Below are positions 54,651 to 64,000 of a stretch of DNA of 64,000 nucleotides, piece by piece. The notes beneath the pieces were generated by a model. It ran no database searches, was not told the DNA's origin, and saw only the letters and a program-made list of their open reading frames with translations. The stretch's first letter is position 1. Each line of letters starts with the position of its first letter. This DNA is from Hippea alviniae EP5-r. GTDB lineage: Bacteria > Campylobacterota_A > Desulfurellia > Desulfurellales > Hippeaceae. Location: positions 186,001-250,000 of the forward strand of contig NZ_ATUV01000001.1 in NCBI RefSeq assembly GCF_000420385.1. The letters run 5' to 3'. Both the position numbers and the translations under genes were made by a program.

Positions 54651-54726
54651 GCCGAGATAGCTCAGTTGGTAGAGCAAGGGACTGAAAATCCCTGTGTCCG
54701 TGGTTCGATTCCACGTCTCGGCACCA
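54651..54726 (+). tRNA. tRNA-Phe (GAA)
   Basis: 76 bases folding as a canonical tRNA: acceptor GCCGAGA/TCTCGGC, D arm GCTC/GAGC, anticodon arm AGGGA/TCCCT with loop CTGAAAA (anticodon GAA), T arm CGTGG/CCACG with TTCGATT loop, encoded CCA. It marks the left boundary of the integrated element; the 3' half is the likely attachment core. Confidence 0.97.
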
Positions 54727-54742
54727 TGAAAAGCCTTTTATG

Positions 54743-54781
54743 AAGCCGTTTAGGGCAACAAGCCTTAAACGGCTTTTTTAA
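54743..54781 (+). terminator. intrinsic terminator after tRNA-Phe
   Basis: 14-bp stem AAGCCGTTTAGGGC/GCCTTAAACGGCTT (one G-T pair), 5-base loop, then TTTTTTA. Could belong to the chromosome or to the end of the element. Confidence 0.9.
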
Positions 54782-54813: not shown

Positions 54814-55139
54814 AACTTTCATGTTCTGAGCGGCTGTTTTGCTTCCGACCCTCTTCTGTTTTAATGAGACTTTTCATCCTGGTATGCTTTATTATTTTTC
54901 AGTCTGTTTCTTTTGCTTTTTATTTTTTTCTATTTACCTTTTTTATTGTCACAATCATCACAACAGACAAAATGTTGGATTTTTACTTTTGCTGTGGGGA
55001 AATTCAAGTGACGATATGTGACGGTTGGTATCTCTTTATGTGACGATAGATGTATTTTTACTTGAGAGTGATTTTTACTGAATGGATTTATTATATAGAG
55101 ATTTATGGAGTTACTGCTGTTTTTCATCTTATTCACTTT
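54814..55139. other. gene-free stretch at the element's left end
   Basis: About 330 bases with no convincing gene. It holds a T-rich tract (54880-54950), a run of GTGAC-type repeats (described separately) and CACAATCATCACAA at about 54949-54963, a reverse-strand echo of those repeats. It lies downstream of the primase gene. Confidence 0.6.
55008..55047 (+). repeat. iteron-like GTGACGAT repeats
   Basis: GTGACGAT at 55008-55015, GTGACGGT at 55018-55025 and GTGACGAT at 55040-55047. Steps of 10 and 22 bases keep them on one face of the helix. Candidate binding sites for an element-encoded replication, excision or regulatory protein. Confidence 0.5.
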
Positions 55140-57524
55140 TCAGTCAGTCTTTTGATAGTTATCAAACTTCCCTTTCTGGTATGTTCTCTTTTTTATATCT
55201 ATCTTCTTTCTTCTTAAAAAGCTTGCAGCCATCATAAGCCTTTGACTAAATTTATTGGACGCTTTGGGAAGCTCTGCTTTTACTTCCTTATCTGCAAAGT
55301 TAATTAAGATATTCATAAGCTCTGTTGCACTGCCCTTCCAACTATCTTTATCTTCAAACCAACTCATGAATGTTGAGACAAGGGCATCATCAGCCAAAGA
55401 AGCGTCTATTATTTTCTCTATGTTTTTTAGGTAGGAATTTAAAAGCCTTTTTTCTTTGCTCTCATATTCACAAGCTGCAAGCCATACGGCAAAATCAGCC
55501 CTTCGTGGTTTCTCTTTTAGGTTTACTCTGTTTATATTTCTTAATCCTTCGGATACCATATCGCACAATGCTCCCAGAATATATGGGTGCTCTTTTTCAA
55601 AATCTTCAAATAATTTCTTTTCTTCTTTTCTTTGCTTAGGATCGACTGGTTTTAGGTTTATCATTACAACCCTATCAAGCAAGTCTTGATAAACAAATAC
55701 ATTGCTTATAGCTGTGAGTATCACGGATGATGCAGCAGTTAGAATAGCTTCTTCATAATCTGTAAACAATCTTCTTTTGGATATACTGCTGCTATCCAAT
55801 AATCTGCATAAGCTATCTGAAAAATTCTGAGAGCACTTTGAGATATTATCCACAACAACAACCTTGCTTCTTGATGCTGCAATAATTAAATCCTCTTCGC
55901 TTTTTAGTGTTGAGAGTTTCTGTTTTATATCAGGATCAACTACGGATTTAATCATTTTAGCCATTGTTGATTTTGTGCTGCCCTGCTCACCTGTTAAAAT
56001 CATGCCTATATGGTTCTCATTCGGACTTAGGACATTTAGCAAAAAACCAACAATTACATTAAAGCCTTCATCATCGATATTTAAAAACTCTTTCAATCTA
56101 TTTACATTTCCACTTTCTTTTGGTTCCGGTAAAGAAAGGGTGCTTGCATATCTTATAAAATTAACAGGGCTTTTATCCAAGATTCTCCAGCTGTTTGGTG
56201 TGATTTCAATAACACGCCATTTCTCGTCTGCTAAATCTATATAGATATTGCCGTTATAATAAGCCACTCTGTAAAATACATCCTCCTCTTTTGACTCATT
56301 TGAGATAATGCTGTCAAGAGTAAATATTACATTATCTGCCACCTTAGGATATAAAACCTTTTTTGTTGTTCTGTAGTAGATAGAAGAGATAAACTTCTTA
56401 AACTCTTTACTTCTAATCTGCATTATTTCAATATGGCTTTCGTTTTTTTGGTCATCCTTATCTTTGTCTCTATCCTTTTTTATTTTTACCTTTGCATAGG
56501 ATTCTCCATCTTTTGAGCGGAAGAATTTTGTTTTTTCTTTAACAAGGCTTAAAGCCAGATCGATGGGTGAAATCTTATCTGAATCTTTATCTTCAAACTC
56601 CTTTGCTTCCTTAAAGGATAAAACTACAGCTTCCTTACCTTTCTTGAGTAAGACATCATTAAAATCTACTCCTTTTGAGTTTTCAGGTATATCCATAGGT
56701 GGTGGGATTAGATAGACATGTATACCTTTATTTTCCTTCAAGAGTTTCTTTGCATTTTCCAAAGCTGCTTTGTATCCCGTGTCACTTTTATCTTTATCGT
56801 AGAAAATATAAACATTCCTTATACCTAAAGGTATTTCAACATCAGGCATATTTGAAGCAGAAAGAGTTGCCCAAATGGGTAGAATAGGTAAAGCTTCCTT
56901 TATACTCAATGCTGTCTCTATACCTTCAACTAAGGCTAAACTATCCAGAGGTTCTCCAAAGTGGACGCTATAACCCTTTGAAGGTAAGCCTTTTAGGAAT
57001 TTTTTCTCTTTTTTGACTACTTTTCCATCGTTGGTGTTTTCTAAAATAGTCATATGGAGCGTTTTTAGATTGTCATGGATATCAACGACTCTTGCTAACA
57101 TTATATTATCTTTGTAAAGTCTTAGGTCGTAGCTTTTAGTAACACCCCTTGATTTCAAATATTTTTTTATTGTTTCGGAATTTTTTACTGAGTTATTCCA
57201 CATATAAGTAGCTTTTTCTATAGTTGATTGATTTTCTTTAGTTCCAATATTTTGAGGCAAATAGGATTTAAAGAGTTCTTTTACTGCCTCTTTTGCATTT
57301 AAACCTTTAACTTTTGCATATACATCTATTATATCTCCTGAATACCCACATCCAAAACAATAAGATAACCCATTTTCAAGGTTTATGGAAAAAGATGGGT
57401 TTTTATCCTCATGAAAAGGGCATCTATGCCAGTATTCTTTTTTGCCTGATGTTGTTTTAATTGTGCCATTTGGCAATATATCTTTAACGATATCGATAAT
57501 ATATGGCTTTAACTCTTCTATCAT
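55140..57524 (-). CDS. DnaG-like zinc finger/Toprim primase fused to D5-type helicase
   Basis: 794-residue replication protein of the element. A CHC2-type zinc finger uses C35/H38 (RCPFHEDKNPSF) and C56/C59 (YCFGCGYSGD). A Toprim-like domain at about 185-300 shows LVEGIETALSIKEALP and YIFYDKDKSDTGYKAA. The C-terminal ATPase domain has Walker A TGEQGSTKSTMAK (~505), Walker B KVVVVDNISK (~553) and an arginine-finger-like DLLDRVVMINL. It would prime and unwind element DNA. It follows the AlpA-like gene by 9 bp. Phage and satellite primases share this architecture. Confidence 0.88.
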   Translation of the reverse strand: MIEELKPYIIDIVKDILPNGTIKTTSGKKEYWHRCPFHEDKNPSFSINLENGLSYCFGCGYSGDIIDVYAKVKGLNAKEAVKELFKSYLPQNIGTKENQSTIEKATYMWNNSVKNSETIKKYLKSRGVTKSYDLRLYKDNIMLARVVDIHDNLKTLHMTILENTNDGKVVKKEKKFLKGLPSKGYSVHFGEPLDSLALVEGIETALSIKEALPILPIWATLSASNMPDVEIPLGIRNVYIFYDKDKSDTGYKAALENAKKLLKENKGIHVYLIPPPMDIPENSKGVDFNDVLLKKGKEAVVLSFKEAKEFEDKDSDKISPIDLALSLVKEKTKFFRSKDGESYAKVKIKKDRDKDKDDQKNESHIEIMQIRSKEFKKFISSIYYRTTKKVLYPKVADNVIFTLDSIISNESKEEDVFYRVAYYNGNIYIDLADEKWRVIEITPNSWRILDKSPVNFIRYASTLSLPEPKESGNVNRLKEFLNIDDEGFNVIVGFLLNVLSPNENHIGMILTGEQGSTKSTMAKMIKSVVDPDIKQKLSTLKSEEDLIIAASRSKVVVVDNISKCSQNFSDSLCRLLDSSSISKRRLFTDYEEAILTAASSVILTAISNVFVYQDLLDRVVMINLKPVDPKQRKEEKKLFEDFEKEHPYILGALCDMVSEGLRNINRVNLKEKPRRADFAVWLAACEYESKEKRLLNSYLKNIEKIIDASLADDALVSTFMSWFEDKDSWKGSATELMNILINFADKEVKAELPKASNKFSQRLMMAASFLRRKKIDIKKRTYQKGKFDNYQKTD

Positions 57525-57533
57525 TCTGCCTCC

Positions 57534-57767
57534 TTATTCGGATATAACTTTAACCTGATGTTTCTCTATGAAATTTTCTATGTCTTCCGGCCTATAAAGG
57601 ATCTTTCCACCTACCTTCAAATACGGTATCCATTTCTTTTCCCAGCGCATATTGGCAAGCCATTTCTGGGAAAGGCCGTAAATTTCTTCAACTTCTTTGG
57701 GAGTCAAATACTTTTTCATTTTCTCCTTTCCTCCTTCCGCAAACTTTTTCTCTCTGTTTTGCCTCAT
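57534..57767 (-). CDS. AlpA/excisionase-like helix-turn-helix protein
   Basis: Small DNA-binding protein of 77 residues. YLTPKEVEEIYGLSQKWLAN followed by PYLKVGGKILYRPEDIENFI is the MerR/AlpA-type winged-helix fold used by excisionases and phage regulators. The first ATG (57767) has AGAAGGAGG 8 bases upstream. A second ATG at 57719 also has a GGAGG and would give the 61-residue domain without the basic leader, so the start is uncertain. Translated just before the primase; probably controls excision or this operon. Confidence 0.8.
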   Translation of the reverse strand: MRQNREKKFAEGGKEKMKKYLTPKEVEEIYGLSQKWLANMRWEKKWIPYLKVGGKILYRPEDIENFIEKHQVKVISE

Positions 57768-57800: not shown

Positions 57801-57909
57801 CTAAAAGTTTAGAGCAAGAAAGATCCTAAAGAAACAGACTCACGCAGAATATTGATTTTTATAAAACCTTATAGGAATGGGAATTTTTTAGCTTCTTGGG
57901 TGAGTCACG
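57801..57909 (-). repeat. control repeat, copy A (upstream of alpA-primase operon)
   Basis: Read on the minus strand it contains GTGACTCAC, then CCTATAAGGTTTT, then GTGAGTCTGTTT and a TTGCTCT...ACTTTTAGG tail. The same elements in the same order and spacing occur at 61979-62088 on the plus strand. The two GTGA-N-TCAC-type sites are 65 bases apart. GTGACTCAC is itself a dyad. It lies within 140 bases of the start of its operon. Confidence 0.75.
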
Positions 57910-58004
57910 CTGTGAAAATTTTTCAAATGCTGATTTTTTATCGATTTTTTTCTACTATAAGACTGTAAAATGAAAGTCCTGATTTTGGAAAAAGGTAGGT
58001 TGGC

Positions 58005-59297
58005 TCAGATATCAGTAACTACAAACCTATAAGCCGGAATAACCTTGATTCTCACACCTTCTTCAACAATCTCTTCTTCATCATCAAAGGTTACAATAAA
58101 CCCTTCTTTAAGATTAAAGTATTTACAACACTCTATAAGCCCTTCAATTTCCCTTTTTCTTGTTGCTTCTGATGAGAACTCATAGCAGACCTGAATGGCC
58201 ATTCTTTCATCAACAACAAAATCACACTCTCTTTTGCCTTTAAAGAATTTTATACTGTTATATTTTGTTTTAAGCTCATGCCAGATTAAGTTTTCAAGCA
58301 ATGCTCCACGGCTGGTCTCACCAAATGAGCGTATGGCATTCAAAAGGCCATTATCCACAAAGTAAACTTTCTTCTCTGAAAGCTCAGATTTTAAAACAGA
58401 GTGATGATGTTTCTTAACGAGTCCTATCAAAAATGAAGTCTCCATATAATACAGATAGTTATACAAAGTATTTTTGCTTACCTTTATGCCTTGAGACTTA
58501 AGCTCATTGTAAATCTTATTTGTAGAAAAGCTGCTTGTTATGTTTTCTGCAACCCTTTTTATGAAGTATTTCAAGACAAAAGGCTCTTTTATGCTATATC
58601 TTTCCACTATATCCCTATATATCATAACATTAAAATACTCCTGCAGAGCAAGAAGTTTTAGCTCTTTTCTCATTAACGGAATCTCTGGAAAACCGCCGTA
58701 TACAAGAAACTCGTTGAATAGCTTGATTAATTTTGCTTTTTTGTTTGTATCGTATATATCCACATTAAAATCAAACTTGAAGTCTTTAAACCTTAAAAAC
58801 TCTTCAAATGTTAAAGGGCTGACTTCGTATGTTAAAGTTCTTCCCCTTAGGGATGTTGCAATCTCATCACCAAGCAGTTTGGAATTTGAGCCGGTTATAA
58901 AGATGTTCTTTGTTATAGTTTCGTATACCCTTCTTACAAATCTCTCCCAACCGTTTACATTTTGAATCTCATCGAAGAAAAGATATATATCCTTTAAATC
59001 TATATCAGGATATAGCTCTGAGTATGCCTGAAGCAATAGATTTAAATCTTCCTTTGTTAAATCCATTCTCTCATCTTCAAAATTGATGTAAACACATCTT
59101 CTTTTGTCTATTCCATCACTTATCAGCTCACTTATTGTTCTAAAAAGCAGGTAAGTCTTTCCAGCTCTCCTTGAGCCTATAACAGATACAATCTTATTAG
59201 AATCCACAGGTAGTTTTATGTTTCTCTCAATAACTGATGGCAAATTCCAGGAGTGAAACTCTACTATGATTGATTTTAAAACTTCTTTCTTTTTCAT
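58005..59297 (-). CDS. AAA ATPase with DUF4143 C-terminal domain
   Basis: 430 residues. The AAA_14 domain (30-170) has Walker A VIGSRRAGKTYLLF, Walker B IYLFFDEIQNVNGWERF and sensor FITGSNSKLL. Residues ~200-430 form the DUF4143 region with winged-helix part and ENLIWHELK...GKRECDFVV...AIQVCYE, a pattern like a PD-(D/E)XK nuclease fold. Such proteins are common cargo in archaea and thermophiles; function is not established. It is the first gene of the bracketed module, read toward the left repeat. Confidence 0.88.
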   Translation of the reverse strand: MKKKEVLKSIIVEFHSWNLPSVIERNIKLPVDSNKIVSVIGSRRAGKTYLLFRTISELISDGIDKRRCVYINFEDERMDLTKEDLNLLLQAYSELYPDIDLKDIYLFFDEIQNVNGWERFVRRVYETITKNIFITGSNSKLLGDEIATSLRGRTLTYEVSPLTFEEFLRFKDFKFDFNVDIYDTNKKAKLIKLFNEFLVYGGFPEIPLMRKELKLLALQEYFNVMIYRDIVERYSIKEPFVLKYFIKRVAENITSSFSTNKIYNELKSQGIKVSKNTLYNYLYYMETSFLIGLVKKHHHSVLKSELSEKKVYFVDNGLLNAIRSFGETSRGALLENLIWHELKTKYNSIKFFKGKRECDFVVDERMAIQVCYEFSSEATRKREIEGLIECCKYFNLKEGFIVTFDDEEEIVEEGVRIKVIPAYRFVVTDI

Positions 59298-59382
59298 AGG
59301 GAAATATTATTAAATATTGTTATCTTTTGCAAGGAAAAAACAAGGGTCATCGTGTTAATTTCTACTTTCGGAAATGTATATT

Positions 59383-59411
59383 TTGACATTCTACTAAAAA
59401 CATATTATAAA
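59383..59411 (+). promoter_or_regulatory. promoter of the AbiE-like operon
   Basis: TTGACA, 17 bases, TATAAA, 42 bases before the ATG at 59454. AbiEi-type antitoxins repress their own promoter through inverted repeats; none is obvious by eye. Confidence 0.75.
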
Positions 59412-59453
59412 TTATATTGTTAATGATGTTTGTTTAGTAATTAGGATGAAAAA

Positions 59454-60041
59454 ATGAATACAGAAAAACTCGAAGTTCTATTCGATAAGCTGTTTTTTAC
59501 AACCATAGATGTTGCCAACTTGTTTAACTATACGATTGAGTCAGCAAGAGTGTTCTGCAGTAGATACGTAAAGAATGGATTGTTTATTAGACTCAGAAAA
59601 GATATGTATATTACAAGTTTTAAATGGAAGAGCTTGACTATTGAAGATTTCTTTAAAATCTCATCATTCTTAAGAGTTCCATCATATATTTCCCTGATGA
59701 CAGCCTTGAGTTATTACGGAGTTACAACGCAGATGTATAACAACTATTTTGAAAGCATAACAACAAAGAGCAGCAGATACTACGAAGTAAAAGGTGCGGT
59801 TTTCAAGTATTACAAAGTTAATGATAGATTCTTCAATAGCTACATTAGAAAAGACGGATATTTTATTGCTACTAAAGAGAAGGCTTTTGTTGATAGCGTA
59901 TATCTGTTCTCTTTTGGAAAGTATAAATTTGACAACAGTGCTATTGATTATTCAAAACTAAACAAAGATAAGGTGTTTTCTATCGCTGAAAACTTTCCTA
60001 AAAAAACTATAAAGTCACTGGAGAAATTATGGAACATTTAG
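59454..60041 (+). CDS. AbiEi-type antitoxin/transcriptional regulator
   Basis: 195 residues. The N-terminal winged helix (FFTTIDVANLFNYTIESARVF, then YVKNGLFIRLRKDMYI) and PSYISLMTALSYYGV are the layout of type IV antitoxins of the AbiEi family. ATKEKAFVDSVYL matches the conserved segment of the C-terminal domain. It overlaps the following nucleotidyltransferase gene by 13 bp. Role: repress the operon and counter the toxin. Confidence 0.85.
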   Translation: MNTEKLEVLFDKLFFTTIDVANLFNYTIESARVFCSRYVKNGLFIRLRKDMYITSFKWKSLTIEDFFKISSFLRVPSYISLMTALSYYGVTTQMYNNYFESITTKSSRYYEVKGAVFKYYKVNDRFFNSYIRKDGYFIATKEKAFVDSVYLFSFGKYKFDNSAIDYSKLNKDKVFSIAENFPKKTIKSLEKLWNI

Positions 60042-60694
60042 AGAAACACGAGCAGTTCGAACTTGAAGTATTGCAAAAGATGCATAATGCGAAATTGCTT
60101 AATAAGTTAATATTTGTTGGTGGAACAATGCTCAGGCTATGTCATGGATTGGATAGGTATTCAATGGATCTTGATTTCTGGACTGTAGATAAGATTGATG
60201 AGACTAAACTGTTTTCTGACTTAAAAAATCTATTCGAAGAAAATTATAAAATTTTGGACTCTCAAAATAAGCATTACACAATAGTTTTTGAGATTAAATC
60301 TGACTCATACCTTCAGAAACTAAAGATTGAGATAAGAAAAGAGCCGAAAAAGATTAAGTTTGAAAAGAGTATAGCATACAGCCCGAGCTCTAATATACAG
60401 GTTATGCTAAACTCAATAACACTTGATGAGATAATGAAAGCAAAGATAGAAGCATTCTTAAATAGGAGAGAAATAAGAGATGTGTATGACATTGAATTTT
60501 TGTTTAAGAAGGGCATAAAACTCAACATTGATAAAAACACGGCCGAGAAGATTGTTAAAGGGATAAACAATCTAACAAAGAATGACTATAAAATAAAACT
60601 TGGTTCTATTTTGGAGCCAGAGAAACGCAAATATTACAACGATGCGAATTTTAGGATATTGAAGTCGTATCTGCAAGGTATAGTCAATCAATGA
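60029..60694 (+). CDS. AbiEii-type nucleotidyltransferase toxin
   Basis: 221 residues. Nucleotidyltransferase core LIFVGGTMLRLCHGLDRYSMDLDFW contains the GG-[ST]-x9-DxD pattern (residues ~29-50, partly quoted), followed by TLDEIMKAKIEAFLNRREIRDVYDI, the Lys and RxxRDxYD element of AbiEii. Family members transfer nucleotides to tRNA or other targets and cause growth arrest, often giving phage resistance. Catalytic residues appear intact. Confidence 0.87.
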   Translation: MEHLEKHEQFELEVLQKMHNAKLLNKLIFVGGTMLRLCHGLDRYSMDLDFWTVDKIDETKLFSDLKNLFEENYKILDSQNKHYTIVFEIKSDSYLQKLKIEIRKEPKKIKFEKSIAYSPSSNIQVMLNSITLDEIMKAKIEAFLNRREIRDVYDIEFLFKKGIKLNIDKNTAEKIVKGINNLTKNDYKIKLGSILEPEKRKYYNDANFRILKSYLQGIVNQ

Positions 60695-61269
60695 TAAAAT
60701 TTACCCAAGTAATCCTCAATCTGTTCATATTAAAACTTAAGGTCAAAAAGGAAACAAAACATACAAGATGTAAATAACCTACTTGATTATGTGGGTTTGA
60801 AGATTTGTATTAGAATGCAAATTCTTACATCTTTTTATTGCACTGCAATACAATTAATATGGTATAGAAGATTAGCCTTAACAGAATTCTCAAATTTGAA
60901 CATGCACTGATCTCCCTATGTTAAGGCAAAAATTATCATTCTCTTGGTATTACGCTTTTCTTTAACTATCTATTTGCCAAAAGGTTCTTCTTTTCTGATA
61001 TTAACTGTTAGTTATTAAAGGCTCAGGAATGGAAGAAAAAGCCTCTTATCTTGGAAGAGAAAAATCCAATTCAGGGTGAAACAGGATGCTTTATAATGAT
61101 CAGGTTTATTTTCAAGAAGCTTTTTAACATTACTCAGTTAATTGTACTCTATCCATGGATATTTTGACAGATAAAAAATTATCCAATTATTTTTACCTTC
61201 GGCATGAATTTGGAGTTTTAACCTCTAGATACAAAACACCAATTATTGAGATGGATTACTCATAAAAAG
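60695..61269. other. 575-base gene-free region inside the element module
   Basis: No open frame longer than about 36 codons. It contains an inverted repeat GCCTTAACA (60875-60883) / TGTTAAGGC (60919-60927) with a 35-base gap. Frames are interrupted by many stops in both directions; it may be a decayed gene or hold a small RNA. I see no transposase remnant. Confidence 0.55.
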
Positions 61270-61680
61270 TTAAATCAATATGAATCTATTAAAACCTTTA
61301 TTTTTCAGACCATTTATTAGCTTTTTATCTCCTGTCCACAGATAGGCATTTAATTCCAGTGATAGAGCTACAAAAGGAGTGTCTTTCTCATCTATATCTT
61401 TACACAGATCAAAAGCCTTTACCTTTGAGCTATAAGAAATCAAGTCCTCATTGTAAAACTCTATTATTTTTGAGACATCATAAAGAACTGACAAAACTTC
61501 ATTCTCTTTTAAATGCGAATATTTAACAATCTTTTCTTTATATTTAAACAGTTCAACAAACATAAAACGGCAGGTGAAAAATTTAATGCCACTAGAAAGA
61601 AATAGAAAATCCCTTTCTTTATTTTTATCCTTCAATAAGATTGAAAAAATTATATTTGTATCAACAACAACCTTTTTCAT
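61270..61680 (-). CDS. PIN-domain ribonuclease toxin
   Basis: 136 residues. PIN fold with VVDTNIIFSIL (first Asp), a Glu in FMFVELFKYKE, and the C-terminal acidic cluster DIDEKDTPFVALSLELNAYLWTGDKKL (partly quoted). Pairs with the small upstream antitoxin gene (4-bp overlap). Type II toxins of this kind cleave tRNA or rRNA. Confidence 0.86.
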   Translation of the reverse strand: MKKVVVDTNIIFSILLKDKNKERDFLFLSSGIKFFTCRFMFVELFKYKEKIVKYSHLKENEVLSVLYDVSKIIEFYNEDLISYSSKVKAFDLCKDIDEKDTPFVALSLELNAYLWTGDKKLINGLKNKGFNRFILI

Positions 61681-61892
61681 TGCTTAGCTACAAAATTCTC
61701 CCTGTTCTCTTCCCACCACTTCCTTTTCAGTTCTTCGGCCATTTCAAAAGCCTTTTCTTCTGTAAGCTTACTTTTAGCTACAGTCTTTTCAATCTCAAGA
61801 GCTTTAATGATATTAGAGAAGTAATCTATGGATAGAAGCTCTTTTGGAAAAGATATGACAACATTCTCATCTTCAATCTTTATATCTATCAT
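61677..61892 (-). CDS. antitoxin partner of the PIN toxin
   Basis: 71 residues, charged, with an N-terminal strand part (IKIEDENVVISFPKELL) and a helical Lys/Glu-rich C-terminus (KAFEMAEELKRKWWEENREN). Size, charge and the 4-bp overlap with the PIN gene fit a type II antitoxin; no named DNA-binding motif is certain. Ribosome binding site TGGAGG. Confidence 0.75.
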   Translation of the reverse strand: MIDIKIEDENVVISFPKELLSIDYFSNIIKALEIEKTVAKSKLTEEKAFEMAEELKRKWWEENRENFVAKQ

Positions 61893-61919
61893 CTTAAACC
61901 TCCATTTTACCCTTTCCTA

Positions 61920-61947
61920 AGTATAAAATAACCCATAAAAAAATCAA
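61920..61947 (-). promoter_or_regulatory. promoter of the PIN toxin-antitoxin pair
   Basis: Minus strand TTGATT, 16 bases, TATACT, 28 bases before the antitoxin ATG. It lies about 30 bases from control repeat copy B on the opposite strand. Confidence 0.6.
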
Positions 61948-61978
61948 TTTTTTTAGAATAATTTATTATTTTTCCTAA

Positions 61979-62088
61979 GGTGACTCACCCTTTTGATCAA
62001 CAAATCCCTATTACTATAAGGTTTTTTAAAACTCTCGTTTTTTACGTGAGTCTGTTTATTCACTCTTTTGCTTGCATTAGACTTTAGG
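61979..62088 (+). repeat. control repeat, copy B (upstream of the coupling-protein operon)
   Basis: GTGACTCAC (61980-61988), ACTATAAGGTTTT (62013-62025), GTGAGTCTGTTT (62046-62057) and an ACTTTAGG end (62081-62088). Same order as copy A, with 66 instead of 65 bases between the GTGA sites. Orientation is opposite to copy A on the chromosome but identical relative to the downstream operon. Confidence 0.75.
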
Positions 62089-62173
62089 CGTGAAGCTTGA
62101 TCAAGGTTGGAGTTTTTCCTGGTCAGGAAAATGGATTGATGTTTAATGTAAAGCTCTTTGAAGGAGGTTTTTT

Positions 62174-62257
62174 ATGGCTTACCTAACCCGGGATGGAAAG
62201 ATGGATGAAACATTTTTAAAGAATCTTGGAAAGGAGAGCATCTATGTCAAAGATTGA
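62174..62257 (+). CDS. possible 27-residue leader ORF
   Basis: ATG with AAGGAGG spaced 6 bases opens a 27-codon frame (MAYLTRDGKMDETFLKNLGK and seven more residues). It ends 14 bases inside the next gene, so it could couple translation. No homology recognised; retained because the ribosome binding site is the strongest of this operon. Confidence 0.4.
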   Translation: MAYLTRDGKMDETFLKNLGKESIYVKD

Positions 62258-62516
62258 TATGCATATTAGTCTGGATAGCTCTTATTTCTCCCTTATGGAG
62301 AAAATGAGAGCAAAAAAGACAAGGAGTGCGTTTATTGAAGAACTTCTGGATCACAAAAAAGAGATAAACAGCATTTTAGATCATTTGTCAGCAGTAAAAA
62401 ACAACCAGAAGCGCATATTTGCATTGCTGCTTCTGATATCGGAAAAGTGTGAAGTATCGGATGAAAAAATCAAAGCAGTTATGCTCGAAAATAAAGATAA
62501 CAAGGAGGAGTTATGA
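62244..62516 (+). CDS. small element protein, possible mobilisation accessory factor
   Basis: 90 residues from the ATG at 62244 (AAAGGAG upstream); a TTG at 62226 is the alternative. IDMHISLDSSYFSLMEKMRAKKTRSAFIEEL looks like a ribbon-helix-helix motif with a strand then two helices (partly quoted), followed by a coiled-coil-like helix. Its place directly before the coupling ATPase (4-bp overlap) suggests a relaxosome or transfer regulator (inference). Confidence 0.65.
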   Translation: MSKIDMHISLDSSYFSLMEKMRAKKTRSAFIEELLDHKKEINSILDHLSAVKNNQKRIFALLLLISEKCEVSDEKIKAVMLENKDNKEEL

Positions 62517-64000
62517 GCAGATCCGTTTTAGGTATAGGTGAAGGATTTGATCTGTTTGTCAACAGGATTAGATACATTGCATACTTTCTTATATACAATA
62601 TAGGCCTAACTATCATTGCCTTTTTAGTATCCTTTTTCTATTTTGCGCAGAAGGATTCCAACATAATATTTATTCTCAAATACAGCATAAAATACGGCTT
62701 TTACAATCTAAAACTATGGTTCTTTGAAGGACTTGTTAAAAATCAAAAGCTACCTTTTGATTACGGCTTTGCTCAAAATATATACAGAAAATACTTCTCC
62801 CTTATACTCCACACCCATGCCTTTTATTATGCTATTGGTATTTCTGTACTCATTTTCCTTATCACCTTCTTTTTAGTCTACAGATATACAAAGAAGTTAT
62901 CAGATAAGCGCATAGTAAGAGGCACAAAGATTAAAAATCTGGGCAAAGTTAAAGAGCTCTCCAAGTTCATAAGACCGAAAGATGAAGTAAAGCACACTAT
63001 TGTGATAGGAACGACAGGCTCAGGCAAGACACAGTCCTTACTGAATCTAATGAAAGAAAAAATCACTGAAGGCAAAAATGTCATTTTTGATGCAAAAGGA
63101 GATTTCTTATCCAGGTTTTTTAGAAAGGGAGTAGACATTATTCTAAATCCCCTGGACATAAGGAGCCATAGATGGAACTTTTTGGAAGAAATTGAAGATA
63201 TAGCAGATCTTGAAACTCTCTCCCAATCTCTTATCCAGAAACCAAAGGGAAGCATAAACCATACATCGGATTATTTTATCAAGAATGCGCAACAGATACT
63301 GTTTATGCTCCTTCAACAGCTACTGGAAAAAGGCGTATTAGACAACAGCAAAGTTAGAGAAGCCATACTAAATGAGATATTCTACAAAACAGATTCATCT
63401 TTGCTTTCTGGTTTTAAAAAGGATCTGAATCTTGGCAGCAATGTATCGCTTGCAGATACATTATCCACACTCAGGGTACATCTCTCCTTTGCAAGGGCTA
63501 TAGGTTATGAGCCCGATGTTAATCCAAAGTTTCATATAAAAGAGTGGATAAGCTCTCATGAGAACAGAAATGTGTACATAACCTACGATTTTAGCAAATC
63601 GCCTATAACAGAAGGCTTCTACTCCGCATTCTTAAATATGCTTCTGCTTCGTTTATCATCTATGCCGGATATAAACAGCGCAAACGGCTCAAAGATAAGA
63701 ATCTGGATAGATGAACTTGCAAATCTTCCAACAATACCAAATCTTGGAGAAGCTCTATCTTATGTAAGGAGTAAAGGAGTAGCGTTTTATTTGTCCACCC
63801 AAAGCCTTGAAGGTCTTAAAAGAAGATATAAGACTTTTGAAATTGCAGATATACTTAACAACTGCAACACAATAATCTCCTTTGCTGCCAACGATTCATT
63901 CACGGCAGAAACCATTTCAAAACTGATAGGCCAAACCCAGATAGAGCTGCCCAGTAAGAATAATTTCTCAAGCCCTAAAATCTCTAAAATTGATGGTATA
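62513..64000 (+). CDS. type IV coupling protein (VirD4/TraD-like), 3' truncated by window edge
   Basis: First 496 residues of an open frame that leaves the window. Two membrane helices at ~22-45 and ~100-122, then an FtsK/VirD4-type ATPase with Walker A VIGTTGSGKTQSLLN (~164-178), NVIFDAKGDFLSRF, Walker B IRIWIDELANLPTIPNL (~397) and FYLSTQSLEGLK, the TraG/TraD Gln motif. It would link the relaxosome to a conjugation channel. ATG starts in the ATGA overlap with the preceding gene. Confidence 0.9.
   Translation, partial: MSRSVLGIGEGFDLFVNRIRYIAYFLIYNIGLTIIAFLVSFFYFAQKDSNIIFILKYSIKYGFYNLKLWFFEGLVKNQKLPFDYGFAQNIYRKYFSLILHTHAFYYAIGISVLIFLITFFLVYRYTKKLSDKRIVRGTKIKNLGKVKELSKFIRPKDEVKHTIVIGTTGSGKTQSLLNLMKEKITEGKNVIFDAKGDFLSRFFRKGVDIILNPLDIRSHRWNFLEEIEDIADLETLSQSLIQKPKGSINHTSDYFIKNAQQILFMLLQQLLEKGVLDNSKVREAILNEIFYKTDSSLLSGFKKDLNLGSNVSLADTLSTLRVHLSFARAIGYEPDVNPKFHIKEWISSHENRNVYITYDFSKSPITEGFYSAFLNMLLLRLSSMPDINSANGSKIRIWIDELANLPTIPNLGEALSYVRSKGVAFYLSTQSLEGLKRRYKTFEIADILNNCNTIISFAANDSFTAETISKLIGQTQIELPSKNNFSSPKISKIDGI

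Follow-up and report, generated by a model that had tools for sequence, protein, structure and literature searches.

The two sequences described here lie in a 64,000-nt stretch of Hippea alviniae EP5-r (the window; contig NZ_ATUV01000001.1, positions 186,001 to 250,000), and are carried by an integrative mobilizable element of about 28.8 kb, of the MOB_F type, inserted in a tRNA-Phe gene. The left sequence (57801..57909, minus strand) is a candidate promoter-operator of a leftward operon constituted by the gene for an AlpA/excisionase-like HTH_17 protein (57534..57767, minus; Pfam PF12728 and PHROG excisionase families) and a primase gene (55140..57524, minus). The right one (61979..62088, plus strand) holds the same position ahead of a transfer operon, which encodes a putative ribbon-helix-helix (RHH) relaxosome accessory protein as its first gene (62244..62516, plus), a TrwB/TraD-type coupling ATPase (62513..64000, continuing to C1:250357, plus; Pfam TrwB_AAD_bind 5e-62) and, after it, a MOB_F relaxase (C1:250361-253039; Pfam TrwC 6e-69, NCBIfam MobF 1e-64). 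The original prediction had placed the two copies ahead of outward-pointing operons, which holds for alpA-primase, while the right operon starts with the RHH-like gene and the coupling ATPase is second; of the two divergent transfer units it proposed, the left one is a replication unit.

In a MAFFT alignment of 103 columns, the two modules are 72% identical, with GTGACTCACCC, CTATAAGGTTTT, GTGAGTCTGTTT, CTTGC and ACTTT all collinear. Their local alignment score was 67, whereas 5000 dinucleotide shuffles averaged 17.7 ± 2.6 and never exceeded 32, and no third site scoring above 32 was found within the window; thus, the predicted alignment of shared blocks in the same order was borne out, as were the start-to-start distances between the GTGA boxes (65 in the left module, 66 in the right). 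Further, the genome contains the exact two-box pattern only at these two places, and 24 other genomes of the class lack it. The two sequences are therefore homologous, and we infer that they act as promoter-operator modules of the mobilizable element. An Rfam search returned tRNA matches only, and a single-stranded hairpin role was discarded, as only one copy (L046) folds strongly (z -6.6) and structure is not a shared property.

Each module displays a conserved grammar, in which dyad boxes built on GTGA(C/G)TC and separated by about six helical turns are combined with a TARACT hexamer. On the minus strand of the left module, the distal dyad box GTGACTCAC is located at 57900..57908, the proximal box GTGAGTC at 57837..57843 and a -10-like TAAACT at 57806..57811; the right module carries GTGACTCAC at 61980..61988, GTGAGTC at 62046..62052 and a -10-like TAGACT at 62078..62083, all on the plus strand. 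The most constrained feature, missed in the earlier description of the shared blocks, is the spacing between the proximal box and TARACT, which is exactly 25 nt. Six copies have TARACT strictly at this distance, and two more carry one-base variants (TAAGCT in L066, CAAACT in G008:C124). When the strict pattern (TCAC, a gap, GTGASTC, 25 nt, TARACT) was searched in 25 genomes, 6 matches were obtained, all within four genomes having this relaxase family, and the reversed control gave 0; at 6/6 strict loci TARACT is single within 83 bp and always at offset 25, a placement with a random P of about 0.001 per locus. Regarding GTGACTCAC, which had been proposed as the binding site, it is a likely box whose core widens in relatives to a 15-bp palindrome, AGGGTGACTCACCCT, but it accounts for the distal box only. 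The four copies of the long type have their outer arms 62-64 bp apart, or some six helical turns; between elements, the arms switch their middle base from C to G on both sides together, so that the dyad is kept. Three features suggest that each module is a promoter with two operators: its position at an operon start, the constant spacing to a -10-like hexamer and the placement of the dyad boxes on the same DNA face.

The search of related genomes, which the original prediction had suggested, found the module before the same operons. Two of the related contigs belong to Desulfurellales/Desulfurellaceae metagenome-assembled genomes (MAGs). In G013 and G006, a relaxase is directly followed by module-related sequence, alpA and primase, on the same strand and with no cargo between them, and alpA leads the alpA-primase operon in 3/3 contigs showing that operon. 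In a third genome (G016, locus L018), two palindromic box pairs precede the RHH operon; this type of module also precedes a conserved open reading frame (ORF) of 163-167 aa in G006:C20 and G013:C64. A profile built from four copies retrieved one more in G008:C124 (E 9e-8), ahead of another ORF, with five boxes spaced 66, 21, 65 and 65 bp. Other primase elements (G004:C163 and G008:C106) are without the module. The window modules are 51-61% alike to the copies of relatives and 72% to each other, and such higher mutual similarity would be expected if one cognate protein read both, or if one copy had been converted. A recent duplication or gene conversion of one regulatory region, with no joint regulatory function, would also leave copies more alike within one element than between elements; however, the box, the spacing and the -10 are retained in relatives despite diverged surrounding DNA, and we consider this explanation highly improbable.

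Some of these neighbourhoods merit description. The 163-167-aa protein, whose family was not recognised (L056 2334-2825, minus; L066 2548-3048, plus), is encoded beside umuC and HigA-like genes in L056 and divergently from LexA/UmuDC-like genes in L066. In G008, locus L123 (3136-3445) displays five GGGTGA(C/G)TC boxes in a row, then a 102-aa ORF, then an IS200-type transposase.

In the mechanism we propose, each module would present two boxes on the same DNA face, a distal dyad, GTGA-C-TCAC, and a proximal half-dyad, GTGA-S-TC. The proximal box would overlap the -35 of a weak promoter that has its -10 (TARACT) 25 nt further on. One element-encoded protein, dimeric or tetrameric, would occupy both modules, so that the operon for transfer (RHH, coupling ATPase, MOB_F relaxase) and the one for replication (alpA, primase) would be coupled. 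On balance, we favour a shared promoter-operator with one element-encoded regulator. The RHH-like protein is our tentative choice for that regulator, acting as autorepressor and relaxosome factor. The duplicated operator of the original prediction is thus retained as a promoter-operator before the replication and transfer operons, conserved in related elements, while its binder may be either the RHH-like protein or AlpA.

The RHH-like protein is 43% identical to the L018 protein, and in both the window and L018 its gene is located between the inferred origin of transfer (oriT) and the genes for coupling ATPase and relaxase. We regard it as the most likely binder because the right module is immediately followed by a conserved palindrome, probably part of oriT. 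Further, several known systems display comparable arrangements. In pWBG749-family plasmids, the RHH relaxosome factor SmpO, whose gene adjoins oriT, binds two dyad sites (ossA-ossB) 65-67 bp apart, and its site specificity shifts in step at both sites (PMC8136818). The likeness lies in the accessory gene between oriT and relaxase, in the spacing of the dyad sites and in the co-changing specificity bases; conversely, the SmpO sites are known only at oriT, with a relaxase of another plasmid family, whereas here a second, predicted operator module fronts a replication operon. TraM of F-like plasmids and TrwA of R388 are likewise small RHH-type proteins whose genes precede those for a TraD/TrwB-type coupling ATPase and a MOB_F relaxase. 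TraM recognises GANTC motifs (PMC8136818), to be compared with GACTC/GAGTC in our boxes; however, no sequence homology was detected with these proteins, and the boxes here form longer dyads, spaced by about 65 bp. Autorepression is common among RHH factors. The accessory protein MobC of RA3 represses its relaxase operon by way of a promoter palindrome close to oriT (PMC4175270), although RA3 has a single operator and the element described here a duplicated module over two operons.

The main alternative is that AlpA regulates the same module, activating its own promoter through the left copy and the transfer operon through the right one. Activation by AlpA of the promoter of alpA itself is known from a phage-inducible chromosomal island (PICI) of E. 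coli, EcCICFT073 (PMC6092414). Moreover, the centre of the proximal box is near -40, a usual activator position, with poor -35 hexamers, and alpA regularly heads the left-type operon, as described above. HTH_17/excisionase proteins usually bind direct repeats, whereas the boxes here are dyads, and the module is also found ahead of RHH operons and unrelated ORFs with no alpA nearby. We consider regulation by AlpA rather unlikely, and the RHH-like accessory protein fits both the position and the dyad better.

Several observations weigh against a single RHH-type regulator acting through shared promoters. A scan for sigma-70 consensus promoters found none in either module, the -35 being poor. The RHH-like protein received no support for an RHH fold from Pfam, PHROG, PDB or Foldseek, and the assignment is drawn from its sequence pattern, its position and a moderately confident AlphaFold model (pLDDT 72, pTM 0.42), in which helices 12-23 and 27-68 follow an unresolved N-terminal stretch, a pattern that fits RHH. 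The copies ahead of two other ORFs extend the module beyond the two operons, and a host-encoded regulator reading the modules is possible. Furthermore, the relatives are fragmented MAGs in which no contig spans both the RHH operon and alpA-primase, and several module copies share descent and are not fully independent.

Downstream of the right module, and on this side only, the palindrome TTTTCCTGGTCAGGAAAA with a conserved 3' flank (62114..62131, plus) is a candidate oriT/nic neighbourhood; both the palindrome and its flank are conserved with G016 (L018), and the palindrome probably belongs to oriT. Another alternative is that both copies are oriT or relaxosome loading sites, that is, two oriT-like sites in opposite orientation. 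The right copy does occupy the usual place of a MOB_F oriT, beside accessory gene, coupling protein and relaxase, and its box spacing equals that of the SmpO sites in oriT; however, the CCTGG(T/C)CAGG palindrome is missing from the left copy and from the alpA copies of relatives, and no nic was identified, which makes two oriTs a decidedly improbable arrangement.

A shared stretch was also observed among the relatives: 108 bp are identical in two genera (G016:C57, L018 414-525, and G006:C20, L056 2195-2306 in reverse complement), and the identity stops abruptly just past CCTGGCCAGGGA on one side, immediately behind the palindrome. This end would fit recombination at nic, or may reflect an assembly effect or MAG chimerism. 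The stretch, near a PglZ-domain gene, is a candidate nic recombination point or oriT mimic.

Replication sites were the remaining alternative, with the 110-bp sequences resembling P4 ori and crr or a PICI origin, each having two sets of boxes on either side of an AT-rich core to which the primase would bind. Gram-negative PICIs do share the order alpA-primase, with iterons behind the primase gene in alpA-pri-rep (PMC6092414); in the element described here, which is relaxase-mobilized and in which no phage packaging gene was seen, a separate tight cluster of three GTGACG(A/G)(T) iterons (GTGACGAT; 55008..55045, plus) lies 3' of the primase gene, as for PICI origins. The same repeat, in about three copies per site, is found behind the G013 primase (L045 6589-6683 in reverse complement) and beside the G016 control region (L018 133-225). 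The position behind the primase gene, expected of a PICI/P4-like origin, is thus that of the GTGACGAT cluster and not of the 110-bp modules, which lie upstream of operons. Additionally, the AT content of their core is no higher than that of neighbouring intergenic DNA, and a fixed TARACT spacing is not expected of an origin. The GTGACGAT cluster is more likely to be the replication origin, and an origin role for the modules seems improbable. Near the right end of the element, outside the window, a second cluster, GTGACGATATGACGATTGTGACGG, was observed (L004 6554-6578, C1:266554-266578), which in the circular form would be about 3.2 kb from the GTGACGAT cluster across the attachment (att) junction; we take this pair to be reminiscent of the P4 ori/crr pair.

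Little is known, particularly beyond the well-studied phyla, of how integrated mobilizable elements that lack their own conjugation pore decide when to replicate and transfer. If the promoter-operator reading is correct, an oriT-binding protein jointly controlling relaxase and primase would link transfer and replication directly, and a duplicated operator with a readable grammar would provide a regulon that can be tested and a means of recognising related elements in genomes of Desulfurellaceae. A broader and more doubtful extension is that the relaxosome accessory protein is the master switch of the whole mobilizable element, with the oriT-marking two-box module copied before the replication operon, and in relatives before other ORFs. 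Conjugation, replication and additional genes would then form one regulon with co-evolving operator specificity.

The inverted orientation of the two modules around a toxin-antitoxin cargo, formerly proposed as a functional arrangement, was not supported. The predicted cargo genes were confirmed by family matches: an AAA_14/DUF4143 ATPase (58005..59297, minus; Pfam, PADLOC PDC-S01), an AbiEi/AbiEii pair (59454..60694, plus; Pfam PF08843, NCBIfam, PADLOC) and a PIN toxin with a putative small antitoxin (61270..61892, minus; Pfam PIN_2, TIGR00305), the latter with no family match; their orientations are mixed and they carry no box copies. The inverted pair itself is not conserved. As relaxase, module, alpA and primase are collinear in relatives, the bracket is most likely a local rearrangement in which the alpA-primase unit was relocated to the left end, and the cargo lies between the modules by chance. 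Once the element is excised and circular, transcripts started at the left module would be expected to read across alpA, primase and the att junction in the direction of the integrase gene.

With regard to the element as a whole, the AlpA-like protein is 64% identical to the G013 copy, and the primase contains a CHC2 zinc finger and a Toprim domain (Pfam Zn_ribbon_DnaG, Toprim_3), with a possible helicase domain whose RNA_helicase match falls slightly under the Pfam cut-off. No VirB4-type protein (PF03135) was found in the whole genome, so this is a mobilizable element in need of a helper, and no type IV secretion system pore family matched among the scanned ORFs of the element. In plasmids, MobF proteins were only about 29% identical at best among the matches listed. 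No relatives of the relaxase and primase were found in viral contigs, where the 45 matches to the pattern, none with relatives of the genes of the element, were discarded as chance. A different MOB_F element, without the module and beside its own integrase, was observed in G008:C15 (L061 5361-10328); its coupling ATPase, Arc-like RHH protein and relaxase are 26-29% identical.

The integration target, tRNA-Phe (gaa), is located at 54651..54726 (plus; ARAGORN, Rfam tRNA). The 52-bp att core (54676-54727), corresponding to the 3' half of the tRNA gene, recurs at C1:269414-269465 with 90% identity over 52 bp, and a tyrosine integrase is encoded just inside the right end of the element. Just inside the left end, a strong terminator-like hairpin (window 54742-54776) is placed to terminate tRNA-Phe.
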